A stretch of DNA of 64,000 nt, from the NCBI RefSeq assembly GCF_019063845.1, contig NZ_CP077683.1:2844501-2908500 (forward strand), read 5' to 3'. Shown piece after piece: positions 38,690-44,448 of the stretch (position 1 is the stretch's first letter; every line of letters begins with the position of its first letter). Origin of the DNA: Geomonas subterranea. Its GTDB lineage: Bacteria > Desulfobacterota > Desulfuromonadia > Geobacterales > Geobacteraceae. The notes below the pieces were generated by a model that saw nothing but the letters and a program-made list of their open reading frames with translations, searched no databases and had not been told where the DNA came from. A program made the position numbers and the translations under genes.

Positions 38690-39180
38690 ACCGAGGCGTT
38701 GCAATCTCTGCTGCACGGTTCGTAACCATCGCTTAGCGTTTGCAATCTACGCGGCACGCTTCACAAGCACCGCTCAGCGTTCGCAATCTCCGCGGCACGC
38801 TTCGCAAACGCCGCTCAGCGTTCGCAATCTCCGCGGCACGCTTCGCAAACGCCGCTCAGCGTTCGCAATCTCCGCGGCACGCTTCGCAAACGCCGCTCAG
38901 CGTTCGCAATCTCCGCGGCACGCTTCGCAAGCGCCGCTCAGCGTTCGCAATCTCCGCGGCACGTTCGCAAACGCCGCTCAGCGTTCGCAATCTCCGCGGC
39001 ACGTTTGCAAACGCCGCTCAGCGTTCGCAATCTCCGCGGCACGTTTCACAAACGCCGCTCAGCGTTCGCAATCTTAGTGACACGTTTCACAAACGTCGCT
39101 CAATGTTCGTAATCTCTGCGGCGCGTTTGCAAACGCCGCTCAGCGTTTGCAATCTGCGAGCGACGGAGCGCTTCGTCGCA
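38690..39180. repeat. Twelve-copy 41-bp tandem repeat
   Basis: A 40-41 bp unit recurs with its GCAATCT core at 38701, 38742, 38783, 38824, 38865, 38906, 38947, 38987, 39027, 39068, 39109 and 39149 (GTAATCT at 39109). Central copies are nearly identical and outer ones diverged. Each unit is itself two related half-units of about 20.5 bp, both beginning YTTCGCAA and containing CCGC. There are no unique spacers, so it is not CRISPR. A 224-codon frame across it is an artefact of the repeat. The rest of the 977-bp gap, 39181-39456, holds nothing that I recognise. Confidence 0.92.
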
Positions 39181-39559: not shown

Positions 39560-40432
39560 TTAGATGATCTTGTTGAGCGAGTACTCGACGATGCCTTCGG
39601 CGCCGAGTTTGATGAGCTCGGGGACGATGCGGCGGACTTCCTGCTCGGGCATGATGCTCTCGATGGAAACCCAGTCGGAGTTGTAGTGGTTGGCGACGGT
39701 CGGGCTCTTGAGACTCGGGATGACGGCGGTGATCTCGGCGACCTTTTCCTTGGGCGCGTTCATCTTGAGGCCAACCATCCCTTCGGCGCGCAACGAGGAT
39801 TGCAACAGGGTGGCGATCTGCTCGATCTTGGCGCGCTTCCAGGGATCTTCCCAGGCGGCCTTGTTCACGACCATGACAGGTACGGATTCCATCAGCTCGG
39901 TGACGATCCTCAGGCCGTTGGCCTTTATGGTGGAACCGGTCTCGGTGACTTCGACGATGGCGTCACACAGCCCCTCAACCACCTTCGCCTCGGTGGCTCC
40001 CCACGAAAACTCTACGGTTACAGGGATGTTCCTTTCGGCGAAGTAGCGCTTGGTGAAGCCGACCAGTTCGGTGGAGATGGTGGCTCCGTGCAGGTCCTCG
40101 GGGCCCTGGATCTTGGAGTTGCCGTTCACCACGAGCACCCAGCGGGCCGGACGGCGGGAGACCTTGGAGTAGACCATCTCGCAGACTTCGATGACATCGG
40201 ACTCGTTCTCGCGGATCCAGTCGCGGCCGGCGATGCCGACATCGATGGTGCCGCGCTCGACGTACTTGCCCATCTCCTGCGGGCGGATCAGGGAGCACTT
40301 TATCTCATCGTCGTCGATACCGGGGAAGTAGCTGCGTGACGAAATCGATATCTGCCAGCCGGCTTTCTTGAACAGGTCGACGGTGGCGTTTTCAAGGCTT
40401 CCCTTCGGGATGCCGAGCTTCAACTTTTCCAT
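39560..40432 (-). CDS. hisG: ATP phosphoribosyltransferase, long form
   Basis: A 290-residue HisG(L), first enzyme of histidine synthesis (ATP + PRPP to phosphoribosyl-ATP). It has [16 protein letters not shown], the [13 protein letters not shown] segment, and the PRPP-binding [18 protein letters not shown]. The C-terminal 75 or so residues form the ACT-like histidine-feedback domain ([26 protein letters not shown]), so no HisZ is needed. The start at 40432 has GGGGGGAATC upstream. It follows hisI on the minus strand, with a palindromic element in between. Confidence 0.95.
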
Positions 40433-40482
40433 GATTCCCCCCTGTAAAGACAATTAGATAGAGATAAAAGCAAAATCAAAAA

Positions 40483-40635
40483 CAAAACCATTAGCCACGG
40501 AGAAAATCTGAGAACTTCGGAGAAAGGCAAAAGGCTTTTGGGTTAAACCTTAAAGCTTTGGGTTCTCTCAGATTTCCTCAGATTTTCTCCGCTTGTCCAC
40601 CGTAGCTTCAGCGAAGGTGGGTGGCCAATGGTTTG
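40483..40635. repeat. Long palindromic intergenic element, copy 1 (hisI-hisG gap)
   Basis: The left arm begins CAAAACCATTAGCCACGG and runs into GAGAAAATCTGAGAACTTC. The right arm has CTCAGATTTTCTCCG, then a short insert (CTTGTCCACCGTAGCTTCAG...), then GGCCAATGGTTTG. It differs from copies 2 and 3 by that insert in the right arm. It fills nearly the whole gap between hisI and hisG. Confidence 0.88.
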
Positions 40636-40639
40636 TTTT

Positions 40640-41017
40640 TTATTTCTTATAAACGTCGTTGGGATCGAAGAGCGGGTTGGAGTGCTCCACCCAGGTGCCG
40701 TTCTCATACTTCACGTAGAAGCAGCTCCGGTTCCCGGTGTGGCAGGCGGCGGGACCGTTCTGCTTCACCTTGATCACCACGGTGTCGGCATCGCAGTCGG
40801 TCAACACCTCGATCACTTCCTGGGTGTTGCCGGACTCTTCGCCCTTCATCCAGTACTTGTTCCTGGTGCGGCTGAAGAACCAGGTCTTGCCGGTTTCCAG
40901 GGTCAGGTTCAGGGTCTTCTCGTCCATGAACGCGACCATCAGCACTTCCCCGCTTTCGTTGTCCTGGATAACAGCAGGGATCAGTCCACCCATCTTCTCG
41001 AAATCGATCTTTATCAT
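40640..41017 (-). CDS. hisI: Phosphoribosyl-AMP cyclohydrolase
   Basis: A 125-residue enzyme opening the purine ring of PR-AMP in histidine synthesis. It has the family segments [50 protein letters not shown], the zinc/magnesium site [27 protein letters not shown]. It is the stand-alone HisI without the HisE domain, so HisE must be elsewhere. The only other histidine gene here is hisG. Confidence 0.96.
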
Positions 41018-41127
41018 GGTTTCTCTCAGTCCTTCTACTGCGGTTATTGATAAAAAAGTGTCTTTTAATACACCTCCAGCCCAAGTTGTGTCAATGATTA
41101 TGTAGACGGCACAAAGGCGTGAAACCT

Positions 41128-41262
41128 AAAACCATTGGCCACGGAGAAAATCTGAGAACTTCTGAGAACGGCCCTTAGGACCCAAAGCTTTTGGTTTTAA
41201 ACCTCAAGTTTTTTTTGCTTCTCTCAGATTTCCTCAGATTTTCTCCGTGGCCAATGGTTTTG
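41128..41262. repeat. Long palindromic intergenic element, copy 2 (ABC ATPase-hisI gap)
   Basis: The arms AAAACCATTGGCCACGGAG... and ...CTCCGTGGCCAATGGTTTT are perfectly complementary for about 29 bp and then imperfectly for another 10-12. The core holds AAGCTTTTGGTTTTAAACC, also seen in the other copies. Total 135 bp. Confidence 0.92.
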
Positions 41263-41270
41263 TTTTTGGT

Positions 41271-41312
41271 TTTAAATAAAAGGCCCGGCGGATCGTTTCC
41301 GCCGGGCCTTCC
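41271..41312 (-). terminator. Rho-independent terminator of the ABC transporter genes
   Basis: On the minus strand, stem AAGGCCCGGCGGA / TCCGCCGGGCCTT with a short loop, followed by TTATTTAAAACC. It lies 25 bp after the ATPase stop, so hisI and hisG probably have a separate promoter. Confidence 0.85.
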
Positions 41313-41336
41313 GGGTGTCTCTTGTCTTCCCGCCGA

Positions 41337-42134
41337 TCAGTCTTCGGCGAGGAGGGTCCTGTCGTTCTCGAAGGTCTTGTGGCGCAGTTCGTGGAACTTC
41401 TGGATCAGCTTCTCCACGGTGAGCGCCTTCTTCTCCTCACCCTCGATGTCGAAGATGATCTCGCCGCCGTCCATCATGAGCAGACGGTTGCCGAACTCGA
41501 TGGCGTGGCTCATGTTGTGCGTGATCATCATACCGGTCAGCTTGTACTCGCTGATGAACTTGTTGGTCAACTCCAGCACGATCTCGGCGTTCTTCGGGTC
41601 GAGCGCCGCGGTGTGCTCGTCGAGAAGGATCAGGGCCGGCTTGGAGAGGACCATCATGAGCAGGGTGAGCGCCTGGCGCTGCCCGCCGGAGAACATGACC
41701 AGGTTCTCCTTCATACGGTGCTCAAGCCCCATCTTGAGCTGCACCAGCTCCTGCCTGAAGATCTCGCGAGTCTTGTTGTTAAGGCTGCGGCGCAACCACT
41801 TCATCCCCTTTTTATGGGTGATGGTCATGTTGTCTTCCAGGCTCATGTTGCCGGCGGTGCCGAGCAACGGGTTCTGGAAGATCCTGCCGATATACTTCGC
41901 CCTCTTGTATTCCGGATCCCGGGTCACGTTCTTGTCGTTGGCAAAGATCTGTCCCTCGCTCGGGAGGTACGTTCCGGCGATGGTGTTGAACAGGGTCGAC
42001 TTGCCGGCGCCGTTGGAGCCGATGATGGTGATGAAGTCGCCTTCCTTCACCTTCAGGTTGATGTTCTTAAGGGCCTTGTTTTCGTTGACGGTCCCCTGGC
42101 CAAATACGATGGAAACGTTTTTAAGCTCTATCAT
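41337..42134 (-). CDS. ABC transporter ATP-binding protein (TrpZ-like amino-acid importer type)
   Basis: A 265-residue ABC ATPase. Walker A GSNGAGKSTLFN (about residues 39-50), Q-loop RIFQNPLLG, signature MFSGGQRQALTLLM (a non-canonical FSGGQ), Walker B LILLDEHTAAL and switch His in MITHNMSHAIEFG. It energises the permease encoded just upstream; its ATG overlaps the permease stop (ATGA). The three-gene set matches the uncharacterised ABC_sub_bind-type importers that include streptococcal TrpXYZ. Confidence 0.9.
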   Translation of the reverse strand: MIELKNVSIVFGQGTVNENKALKNINLKVKEGDFITIIGSNGAGKSTLFNTIAGTYLPSEGQIFANDKNVTRDPEYKRAKYIGRIFQNPLLGTAGNMSLEDNMTITHKKGMKWLRRSLNNKTREIFRQELVQLKMGLEHRMKENLVMFSGGQRQALTLLMMVLSKPALILLDEHTAALDPKNAEIVLELTNKFISEYKLTGMMITHNMSHAIEFGNRLLMMDGGEIIFDIEGEEKKALTVEKLIQKFHELRHKTFENDRTLLAED

Positions 42135-43030
42135 TTCGCCACCTTGAACGGGACCTTCAGTTTCTTGGCCTGGGTCAGAATGAGAAGGATGATGATCAGC
42201 ACCCCCTTGATGAGGTTCAGGTCACTCGGGGTCATGTGGATGACATAGCCGTAGAAACGTCCGACGTACATGACGGCGTAGAAGCAGACGGAGCCGGCAA
42301 GCGCGCAGAAGGTGAGGACACCGATGCGGTTGCTCTTAAGCATCAGGAACTCGCCGATCATGACGGAAGCGAGGCCCGAAACGATGATCCCCTGCCCGAG
42401 CCCCACGTCAGCGAAGCCCAGATACTGCGCGGCGAAGGCGCCGGAGACGGCGACCAGGCCGTTGGAGAGGCCGACGCCGATGGTCTTCAGGGTCTTAGGG
42501 TTCACCCCCTGGGAGATGACCATCTGCTCGTTGTTCCCCATGGCGCCCAGCGTCATGCCAAGGTCGGTGCGGAAGAAGAGATCGAGCAGCACCTTGACCA
42601 CCAGAGCCACGACCAGGAAGAACACCAGGAGGATGTATTCATCGGGGATGACGCCGGTGAACTTCTCGGTGACCTGCTTCAGGATGGTCGGCTGATCCAG
42701 GATGGGGACGTTGGCGCGGTTGCCCAGGATGCGGATGTTGACCGAGTAGAGCATGGTCATGGTGAGGATACCGGCCAGGAGGTTCGGTACCCTCAAGTGG
42801 TTGTGGATAAGGGCGGTGACCACGCCGGCCAGCACACCGCCGGAAAAGGCGATGAGAAGCGCGAGCCAGCCGTTCATGCCGGAGAGGAGGCATTGCACCA
42901 TGAGCGCGGCCCCCAAAGGGAAGGACCCGTCAACCGTCAGGTCCGGAAAATCAAGAATCCTGAACGAGATGAACACGCCCAGGACCATGATGCCATAGAT
43001 CAATCCTTCAACAAAAATACCTTCGATCAT
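42131..43030 (-). CDS. ABC transporter permease (TrpY-like)
   Basis: A 299-residue integral membrane protein with about eight or nine hydrophobic segments (LIYGIMVLGVFISFRIL, GWLALLIAFSGGVLAGVVTALI, YILLVFFLVVALVVKVLLDL, VLIIILLILTQ). It carries the LDFPDLTVDGSFPLGAA segment typical of this branched-chain-like permease family. The start at 43030 (MIEGIFVEG) has AAGGG upstream; an earlier ATG at 43069 lies inside a palindromic element. It imports an amino acid or related compound handed over by the binding protein. Confidence 0.9.
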   Translation of the reverse strand: MIEGIFVEGLIYGIMVLGVFISFRILDFPDLTVDGSFPLGAALMVQCLLSGMNGWLALLIAFSGGVLAGVVTALIHNHLRVPNLLAGILTMTMLYSVNIRILGNRANVPILDQPTILKQVTEKFTGVIPDEYILLVFFLVVALVVKVLLDLFFRTDLGMTLGAMGNNEQMVISQGVNPKTLKTIGVGLSNGLVAVSGAFAAQYLGFADVGLGQGIIVSGLASVMIGEFLMLKSNRIGVLTFCALAGSVCFYAVMYVGRFYGYVIHMTPSDLNLIKGVLIIILLILTQAKKLKVPFKVAK

Positions 43031-43053
43031 AACACCCTTCTTAAAACCATAGT

Positions 43054-43188
43054 CAAAACCATTGGCCACGGAGAAAATCTGAGAACTTCTGAGAAAGGCG
43101 TTACAAGAAAAGCTTTTGACAGTAAAACCTTCAAAGGATTTTGGCTTCTCTTTGATTTGCTCAGATTTTCTCCGTGGCCAATGGTTTG
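43054..43188. repeat. Long palindromic intergenic element, copy 3 (binding protein-permease gap)
   Basis: The arms CAAAACCATTGGCCACGG... and ...CCGTGGCCAATGGTTTG share the terminal sequence of copies 1 and 2 and have the same core (AAAAGCTTTTGACAGTAAAACC). 135 bp, filling almost the entire gap between the binding-protein and permease genes. Confidence 0.92.
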
Positions 43189-43199
43189 CTTTTCCTTTG

Positions 43200-44195
43200 T
43201 TACTTCTTGGTTGTCTTGCCGTTCTGACGGACGGTCTTGGCGGCCTTGACGATGTCGGCCGGAACGGTCAGGCCGAGCTTTTTGGCTACATCGAGGTTGA
43301 TCAGCAGATCGACGTCGCTAGCCTTGGTCATGAAACGGGTCGGGATCTGCTCCGGCTTCTTGCCTTTGAGGATCTCGATCACCATCTTGCCGGTGGCGCG
43401 GCCCATCTTGTAGTAGTCGAAGCCCCAGGCGGCGAGGACGTCGTAGGTCTCGGAGGAGCTCGGGTCTGCGGACATGACCGGGATCTTGGCCTTGGCGGCT
43501 ACCTCGGCAACGGCGCTCATGGCGGAGACGACGGTGTTGTCGGTGGAGATGTAGATGGCGTCGACGCGGTTGGCGATGGTCTGGGCGGCCTGCTTCACCT
43601 CGGCGGATTTGGTGACGGTGGTCTCAACGAACTCGAGGTGCTTCTCTTTGCAGACCTGCTTCACCATCCCTGCCAGCACCACGGCGTTTTCCTCGGAGCT
43701 GGTGTAGATGTGGCCGATACGCTTGGTCTTCGGCTTGATCTTGAGCAGCATCTCGATCTGCTGCTTCACCGGGGTCATGTCGGAAACGCCGGTGACGTTC
43801 TTGCCACCCTTGGCGAGGGACGGAACCAGGCCCGCCTTGACCGGATCGGTGACGGCGGAGAAGACGATCGGGATCCCTTTCAGGGTGTTCACCAGCGCCT
43901 GGGCGGTCGGGGTGGCGACGCCGACGGCGAGGTTGACCTTCTCGCTCTGGAACTTGGTGGCGATGGACGCCGCGGTGTTGATGTCGCCGTTGGCGTTCTG
44001 CACGTCGAAGGTTGCGTTGATTTTGGAGTCTTTCAGTTCATCCTGAATCCCCTTCACAACCGCATCCAGCGCCGGGTGGGAAACGATCTTCGAGATGCCG
44101 ATCGTCACCGGCTTGGCGGGAGCCGCCGCGAAAACGGTCGCCGCGGACAACAGGGACAAAGCGAGAGCCAACAGAATACTGATCTTCTTGCGCAC
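43200..44195 (-). CDS. ABC transporter substrate-binding protein (ABC_sub_bind / TrpX-like)
   Basis: A 331-residue periplasmic binding protein: a signal peptide (KKISILLALALSLLSAATVFA), then the ABC_sub_bind pattern VTIGISKIVSHPALDAVVKGIQDEL, IVFSAVTDPVKAGLV, IGHIYTSSEENAVV, and DAIYISTDNTVVSAM. There is no lipobox. I place the start at the second GTG (44195), five bases after GGAGG; the GTG at 44201 overlaps that site. The ligand is likely an amino acid (tryptophan/tyrosine in characterised relatives). The adjacent hisG and hisI may hint at histidine, but that is weak. Confidence 0.88.
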   Translation of the reverse strand: MRKKISILLALALSLLSAATVFAAAPAKPVTIGISKIVSHPALDAVVKGIQDELKDSKINATFDVQNANGDINTAASIATKFQSEKVNLAVGVATPTAQALVNTLKGIPIVFSAVTDPVKAGLVPSLAKGGKNVTGVSDMTPVKQQIEMLLKIKPKTKRIGHIYTSSEENAVVLAGMVKQVCKEKHLEFVETTVTKSAEVKQAAQTIANRVDAIYISTDNTVVSAMSAVAEVAAKAKIPVMSADPSSSETYDVLAAWGFDYYKMGRATGKMVIEILKGKKPEQIPTRFMTKASDVDLLINLDVAKKLGLTVPADIVKAAKTVRQNGKTTKK

Positions 44196-44448
44196 AGACA
44201 CCTCCGGTTACATTGAATTGAATTTCTGCTGCGATTACTGCCAGTAAAACCGTTATTTGTCGCCGCCGACCGGTGAAGAGGTCGGACCTATTTTCGACCG
44301 CCGAGCATACCACCGGCAACGAGCTATCGTCAACGCCATAGTGGCTATAAATAGAACAATTCTTTGAAGAAACGCAAAAAATGGGAGCGATACGTGTCAA
44401 ACGGGGGCGCAAGGTAAATTTTTTCTCACAAAAACTGCCCACAGGTTG

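Follow-up and report, generated by a model that had tools for sequence, protein, structure and literature searches.

The 64,000-nucleotide stretch of the Geomonas subterranea genome analysed here (contig NZ_CP077683.1, positions 2,844,501–2,908,500; hereafter the window) carries three related palindromes in the gaps of a single minus-strand gene run, and these are probably gene-less members, similar to miniature inverted-repeat transposable elements (MITEs), of a mobile family whose full form is a cassette containing a GxxExxY gene. We observed the framed cassette, the loss of its gene in place at one site, and many gene-less copies with shared cores, together with differences in presence and absence between species and a linkage between arms and protein. 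The new part is the GxxExxY gene as the partner of intergenic palindromes; palindromic multicopy repeats were already known in Geobacter.

The arm word CCATTGGCCACGGAGAAAATCTGA, with up to three mismatches allowed, matched five times in the window, in every case inside elements 1–3 (Table 1), and did not match in any of 100 dinucleotide shuffles. The positions that a first-pass annotation, made from the sequence alone, had given for three related palindromes were borne out, as was the perfect arm pairing of about 29 bp that it described, which corresponds to the outer stretch of element 2 (29 bp perfect). The arms of element 2 (40 nt) are 93% complementary and those of element 3 (44 nt) 84%, and the two elements share 83% identity. 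A separate palindromic unit of 26 bp, absent from that annotation, interrupts the right arm of element 1. Folded as gene-sense RNAs with a few flanking bases added, elements 1, 2, and 3 reached −73.7, −78.1, and −61.0 kcal/mol (z = −9.8, −11.3, and −8.8, respectively), and none of 200 shuffles of each element folded as well. An Rfam identity was rejected for the elements, because every one of the 11 matches fell under its gathering score. Units of the CCCACCTTCGCTGAAGCTACGGTGG type, to which the 26-bp insertion belongs, were also seen by eye in the orthologous gaps of genomes G013, G017, and G010, and by eye they form a second, smaller palindrome family.

With element 2 as the query, 99 match rows were obtained from the host genome (4.99 Mb, one contig), and the arm word (three mismatches or fewer) matched 77 times there, compared with no matches for a reversed control pattern. 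The arms consist of units of about 10 nt with a GAG end. Pairing a plus arm with a following minus arm, a rule that partly fixes the arm order by construction, yielded 38 paired elements, 37 of which spanned 83–196 bp (GCC to GGC) and one 37 bp; the converse arrangement, a minus arm closely followed by a plus arm (178 bases), occurred in one tandem array only among the stretches examined. Sixteen further arms lacked a near partner, including both ends of a gene-bearing cassette, and 52 sites were counted in total (49 once arrays were merged). Among 58 genomes, the family was found in the host genome and in 15 of 18 congeners and in none of the 39 genomes of other genera. The absence of the family from the genome and its relatives, which the first-pass annotation had named as the finding that would overturn its MITE idea, was therefore not observed. 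Its remark on three copies within 2.7 kb belongs to real clustering, as 11 of 48 neighbour gaps were 2.5 kb or shorter, compared with a random mean of 1.2 and a maximum of 7 in 5000 draws.

The gene-less cores were alike (mean best score of 35.6 vs 18.3 for shuffled cores), and 24 of 35 exceeded the best shuffled core, with some cores including a second arm, which raises the scores. This resemblance suggests that copying probably involved the gene-less units themselves. Arms of one element were less alike (24.4) than arms from different elements (27.6), and all 5000 permutations equalled or exceeded the observed within-element value. We read this difference as the mark of two distinct end types, comparable to those at the left and right of a transposon; a crude typing of the arms as A or B gave 24 mixed elements of 37, compared with 17.4 expected (p = 0.03). 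The 37-bp element was left out of the clustering, arm, gene-edge, duplication, and core statistics, and two further array duplicates were left out of the core comparison and of the second figure of the clustering and arm analysis. One stretch of the genome contains three element copies in a tandem array with a period of 292 bp (L043 2489–3187; C1:2323988–2324686), and in another, judged by eye, an element encloses a different kind of palindrome, resembling GGGGACAGGCTAC...GTAGCCTGTCCCC (L060 2230–2410; C1:4255229–4255409).

Orthologous gaps free of the element, which the first-pass annotation had proposed looking for, exist among the congeners as judged by eye. By eye, the family was present in 10 of 17 orthologous congener loci in the gap between the binding protein and the permease (gap A), in 5 of 16 in the ATPase–hisI gap (gap B), and in 6 of 16 in the hisI–hisG gap (gap C), and in six genomes gap B holds a GCAAAG-type palindrome in place of the family.

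At C1:4521037–4521543 of the host genome, the arms of the family frame the open reading frame (ORF) of a GxxExxY gene, which matched TIGR04256 (GxxExxY) at 1e-41 and PF13366 (PDDEXK_3) at 1.1e-40. Cassettes combining the family's arms with a GxxExxY gene also occur in congeners. Residues D66, E76, and K78 were invariant in 23 aligned sequences, forming a D...ExK site of the PD-(D/E)XK type. The predicted structure of a relative (L171; 58-sequence alignment) had a pLDDT (predicted local distance difference test) of 96, and its nearest solved structure was SSO0001 (E = 2.5e-3), a Cas4-type nuclease, with alkaline and lambda exonucleases next; at 1e-3 or better L171 had no PDB match, and a PDB sequence search with the host's own GxxExxY protein returned no match at E values up to 1. 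Matches among viral models included a protein without a name (4e-10) and, from Halogranum tailed virus 1, a PD-(D/E)XK nuclease (2.6e-8). GxxExxY genes were present in 111 of 297 genomes of the host's phylum, and a scan of named genomes gave at least 580 confirmed relatives. To our knowledge, GxxExxY (PF13366) has no known function. The terms GxxExxY, PDDEXK_3, PF13366, and TIGR04256 are seldom mentioned in the open literature searched, and no link between these repeats and GxxExxY was found in that literature, outside which subscription papers and supplements mostly lay.

Gene-bearing and gene-less forms were found at shared sites. At site 4, between a glycosyltransferase-like gene (named from reading) and a gene starting MNGDDEK, 19 genomes were compared. 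By eye, the full cassette was present in G000, G005, G012, and G018, and a gene-less palindrome of the family in G006 and G014. G017 has kept both arms, some of the leader, and the final GxxExxY codons but lost the remainder; aligned with the G005 cassette, 191 of 217 bases were identical (218 vs 612 bases in length), so that the G017 form is approximately 394 bp shorter than the full cassette. The alignment indicates that the G017 palindrome was made in place by internal deletion of the cassette. In G004, a gene of the same protein cluster lies in the site 4 cluster, yet outside the 620 bases shown, and the other genomes carry single-arm relics, variants, other repeats, or nothing (by eye). 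At site 1, between CapD-like and Wzi-like genes (named from reading; 17 genomes), a GCAAAG-armed GxxExxY cassette was present in five genomes and a GGGATA-armed cassette of a different protein cluster in seven; by eye, a gene-less palindrome occupied the site in G006, G008, and G015, half an arm was left in G007, and nothing in G004. The occupancy of sites 1 and 4 thus indicates that cassette and gene-less palindrome can alternate at one site. Also at site 1, a CGGAT-armed gene-less palindrome adjoins an apparent leftover GCAAAG right arm in L299 (G008) and L297 (G006), as seen by eye, which looks like one family replacing another.

Inverted repeats frame GxxExxY genes well beyond this family. 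In the genus, an inverted-repeat score of 36 or more was reached at 32 of 41 GxxExxY loci and at 22 of 26 loci encoding four-helix-bundle proteins (S23/intervening sequence (IVS) type), compared with 4 of 173 control ORFs, and the four high-scoring controls were frames at hisI (in the host genome and G005, on both strands), which the family itself frames. The 41 loci come from 43 GxxExxY rows, two short fragments having been omitted, and the 26 loci are the stronger rows of their set; test flanks of 270 bases were taken from the domain ends and control flanks of 250 bases from the ORF ends. Two GxxExxY loci, L163 (G016) and L095 (G015), have weak arms (scores of 27 and 32), and the GxxExxY match in G015 consists of two overlapping pieces.

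A cross-phylum set was assembled from named bacterial and archaeal genomes by taking the best 80 of at least 580 confirmed loci, a choice that biases it towards GxxExxY proteins near this clade. Of these, 77 were usable, three having been dropped because a flank was too short, and the flank counts include two broken-frame loci. A score of at least 36 was obtained at 47 of 77 loci and at none of 93 control ORFs. The high-scoring loci cover at least 12 phyla according to record titles (mostly metagenome bins) and include one archaeon, a member of the Methanosarcinales (L248). A repeat-unit pattern, picked after the cross-phylum arms had been viewed, lay inverted on both sides of 57 of the 77 loci (median span of these framed loci, 462 bp), on one side of 15, and on neither side of 5; the opposite orientation on both sides was found at 5 of 77. 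Among the 93 control ORFs, the pattern occurred on both sides of none and on one side of six.

Protein likeness correlated with arm likeness (Mantel r = 0.40; 82 loci with arms, of 114), and none of 2000 permutations, with a maximum of 0.27, reached the observed value. In 15 genomes, selected mainly for such arms at their GxxExxY locus, exact CACAGAG triple arms numbered 1 to 138 per genome and matches to the control 0 to 2. Among the matches listed for 10 other genomes, all 35 pairs of neighbouring exact arms no more than 700 bp apart were convergent, after same-strand copies within 40 bases had been merged, with the size of gene-less forms in 27 of these pairs and that of gene-bearing forms in 8. 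Direct reading of the sequence showed one gene-less palindrome in an archaeon. In the genus, two protein clusters each hold their own arm type at two sites, and site 1 combines two clusters with two arm types.

These observations suggest the following model. The full cassette of approximately 0.5 kb would consist of an arm, a small gene for a PD-(D/E)XK nuclease-like GxxExxY protein, and an inverted arm, each arm being composed of three units of about 10 nt (GCCACGGAGA-AAATCTGAGA-ACTTCTGAGA). The GxxExxY protein would recognise arms of its own type, probably in hairpin or cruciform form, and the nuclease would move cassettes and gene-less copies alike, the latter being mobilised in trans in the manner of MITEs. 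Copies would persist between genes, mostly in co-directional runs, where a hairpin would be tolerated, and a persisting hairpin may act as a terminator or RNase III site. If so, a kind of bacterial intergenic repeat is linked to a widespread GxxExxY gene, and the tie to framed cassettes and gene-less palindromes gives the protein a testable role. It also suggests how some of the intergenic repeats recorded in Geobacter arose, and the source of such repeats becomes a question that simple experiments and genome comparisons can answer.

Several results weigh against this model. Movement of the elements by the GxxExxY nuclease is inferred, and no movement, cutting, or binding has been observed. 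Target-site duplications, a check suggested by the first-pass annotation, were not found at 37 elements of the host genome, the longest boundary direct repeat being 3.68 vs 3.77 in shuffled pairs. An intact GxxExxY gene of the cognate clade is absent from 10 of 14 element-rich genomes (25 matches or more, the host included), and the presence of the cognate gene does not track that of the elements across congeners. The model explains neither the absent duplications nor the missing cognate gene; the family may be old and now mostly without its gene, or it may be served by another GxxExxY. No GxxExxY relic was detectable in the cores of the gene-less copies of the host genome, and therefore in-place deletion was demonstrated at one site only. 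Nine of the 41 genus GxxExxY loci scored below 36, and the genus loci collapse to 10 (GxxExxY) and 6 (four-helix-bundle) independent sites, a weakness that the cross-phylum set removes. The host's own phylum gave weaker results: after 7 of 30 loci shorter than 3300 bp had been dropped, 11 of the remaining 23 had the repeat-unit pattern on both sides and 11 of 23 scored 36 or more. Finally, 7 of the 15 genomes chosen for the exact-arm count had three or fewer matches and thus show no crowd of gene-less copies.

The elements might instead be selected functional RNA or DNA hairpins (terminators, mRNA-stability elements, or RNase III sites), with the GxxExxY link as a by-product of shared arms, a reading that we consider rather unlikely. 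The strong folds of elements 1–3 are as it would predict, and 28 of 37 elements lie in co-directional gaps, many of them about 20 nt or less from a called gene end; however, most background gene pairs are co-directional too (171 of 246), and no polarity of the elements relative to flanking genes was seen by eye (about 11 vs 7). Some element-free congener gaps carry, by eye, a terminator-like hairpin in the same place, but an automated terminator scan of the gaps was not significant (gap C, 0 of 6 vs 4 of 10; gap A, 0 of 9 vs 2 of 8), and a consensus scan, which is blind to long-loop stems, found no terminator at the elements. Because the automated scan gave no support, terminator replacement, striking by eye, is kept as a possibility. 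Gap content also differs among close species. Selection for stem pairing was rejected, given that arms match worse within an element than across elements, and stem pairing is therefore unlikely to be the main selected trait.

Two further explanations concern the role of the gene. GxxExxY genes could have invaded existing palindromes, making the gene-less form the ancestor rather than the derivative. The excess of gene-less over gene-bearing forms in the host genome (38 paired elements vs one cassette of the family), the different families at the same sites, and the elements that by eye appear to sit in relics of older ones (G006 and G008) agree with this order of events, but the gene ends retained between the arms of G017 mean that, at least at site 4, the deletion came later, and we regard such an invasion as unlikely. 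We consider still less probable a classical MITE or repetitive extragenic palindrome (REP) system run by a DDE transposase or by a REP-associated tyrosine transposase (RAYT, a Y1 transposase), with GxxExxY as a passenger. Terminal inverted repeats, gene-less multicopy units, and two Y1_Tnp genes in the genome would fit such a system, whereas the lack of target-site duplications and the tracking of GxxExxY likeness by arm likeness across phyla do not. A RAYT partner was itself rejected, as no arm motif (four mismatches or fewer) was found in the 10-kb stretches around either Y1_Tnp gene; no search was aimed at DDE transposases within such arms.

Bacterial MITEs are short, gene-less, multicopy elements with terminal inverted repeats and common cores. 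The palindromes described here are likewise short, gene-less, and multicopy, with terminal inverted repeats and shared cores; they occur in most congeners, and their ends recur on a gene-bearing partner, the GxxExxY cassette, whose gene would confer a putative autonomy. The MITE-like character proposed by the first-pass annotation stands to this extent. In contrast to MITEs, they have no target-site duplication, and their partner is a nuclease-like GxxExxY protein (TIGR04256/PF13366) rather than a known transposase, so the strict label fails. In REP/RAYT systems, intergenic palindromes are more numerous than the gene that carries them, and a GTAG-type tetranucleotide is conserved. The palindromes here also outnumber the gene-bearing form, but the two Y1 transposase genes of the host lack nearby arms.

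Multicopy intergenic sequence families, some of them palindromic, have been described in Geobacter bemidjiensis and G. metallireducens (PMC2996986, PMC2700814); those of G. bemidjiensis occupy 12% of intergenic regions, and their insertion was judged non-random. Compared by description, they resemble the present elements in being intergenic and partly palindromic families, but the available portions of those reports name no partner gene. The IVS of the Coxiella 23S rRNA contains an S23p ORF between inverted repeats with a 28-bp stem and is excised by RNase III (PMC4990558). According to the available part of that report, it shares with the cassettes a small ORF between stem-forming inverted repeats, and S23p belongs to the four-helix-bundle family found here between inverted arms; the window elements differ in sitting between protein genes and in having GxxExxY as the partner. 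We file the palindromes as a variant of the MITE/IVS kind, not as MITEs proper.

In the genus, four-helix-bundle genes (PF05635) stand between short repeats of other kinds. Among 31 plasmid records with a four-helix-bundle match, eight were examined, all cyanobacterial and without control ORFs, and six of these eight loci scored 43 or more; L324 (score 20) and L328 (score 38) lacked clear arms. Clear heptamer-type repeats, for example GGGAGTA, GGGTGTA, and GGGAACA, were found on some plasmids. Loci of such genes in cyanobacterial genomes scored 18, 21, 30, 41, and 41. On the Anabaena sp. 90 plasmid pANA02 (L329), such a cassette is flanked by cas6 and cas4, and on the Nostoc edaphicum plasmid pNe_5 (L322) one separates two ribonucleotide reductase genes. 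Cyanobacterial short tandemly repeated repetitive sequences (STRRs) are usually 7-bp repeats for which the consulted text gives no known function (PMC2670836). These and the Xanthomonas/Nostoc heptamer repeats (PMC4692102) resemble the arms in being short, tandem, and intergenic, and on cyanobacterial plasmids heptamers of a similar kind flank some of the four-helix-bundle genes, but the unit and the gene family are unlike those of the window elements. We tentatively propose, as a conceivable wider reading, a single pan-prokaryotic superfamily of cassettes with inverted short-tandem-repeat arms at their ends, to which both GxxExxY and four-helix-bundle (S23/Avd-like) genes would belong as the proper genes. 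Many orphan intergenic repeats, possibly including the cyanobacterial STRRs, would then be explained as gene-less derivatives of such cassettes; 23S rRNA IVSs would be a special case, and movement would proceed by a nuclease acting on palindromic arms without target duplication, unlike known transposases. Counting against the STRR link, few pairs of the Nostoc heptamer can form inverted repeats and none of its copies lie on plasmids, according to the available part of the source (PMC4692102). If the four-helix-bundle part holds, the cyanobacterial heptamer repeats could share this kind of origin.

Domain matches confirmed the gene names of the first-pass annotation (Table 1). Its statement that the palindromes never lie within genes holds for elements 1–3, provided that the permease starts at 43030, since its open frame continues to 43069, into element 3; genome-wide, crude gene calls gave an overlap of more than 30 nt with a gene edge for 3 of the 37 paired elements that measure at least 75 bp.

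Table 1. Palindromic elements of the window and the genes that flank them
Feature	Position in window	Strand	Description
hisG	39560-40453	minus	PF01634/PF08029; downstream neighbour of element 1
Element 1	40483-40635	.	hisI–hisG gap; gene-less palindrome; right arm interrupted
Nested 26-bp palindromic unit, CCCACCTTCGCTGAAGCTACGGTGG type	40596-40621	minus	one mismatch; splits right arm of element 1
hisI (PRA-CH)	40640-41017	minus	PF01502; between elements 1 and 2
Element 2	41128-41262	.	ATPase–hisI gap; most regular of the copies
ABC transporter ATPase	41337-42134	minus	PF00005; upstream neighbour of element 2
ABC permease	42131-43030	minus	PF02653; downstream neighbour of element 3; start picked by eye
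Element 3	43054-43188	.	binding protein–permease gap; gene-less palindrome
Substrate-binding protein	43200-44201	minus	PF04392; upstream neighbour of element 3

At 38696–39155 of the window, a 41-bp unit is repeated in tandem 11.3 times (89% matches); the array reads as a long repetitive open frame, and no link between it and the palindromes was seen. In hisI–hisG gaps without element 1 (L140, L141, L142, L145, and L149), a terminator-like stem after hisI starts with AGCCACGGAG, as seen by eye. This sequence contains the outer 9 nt of the family's arm motif, an overlap that may reflect chance, a relic, or a target.

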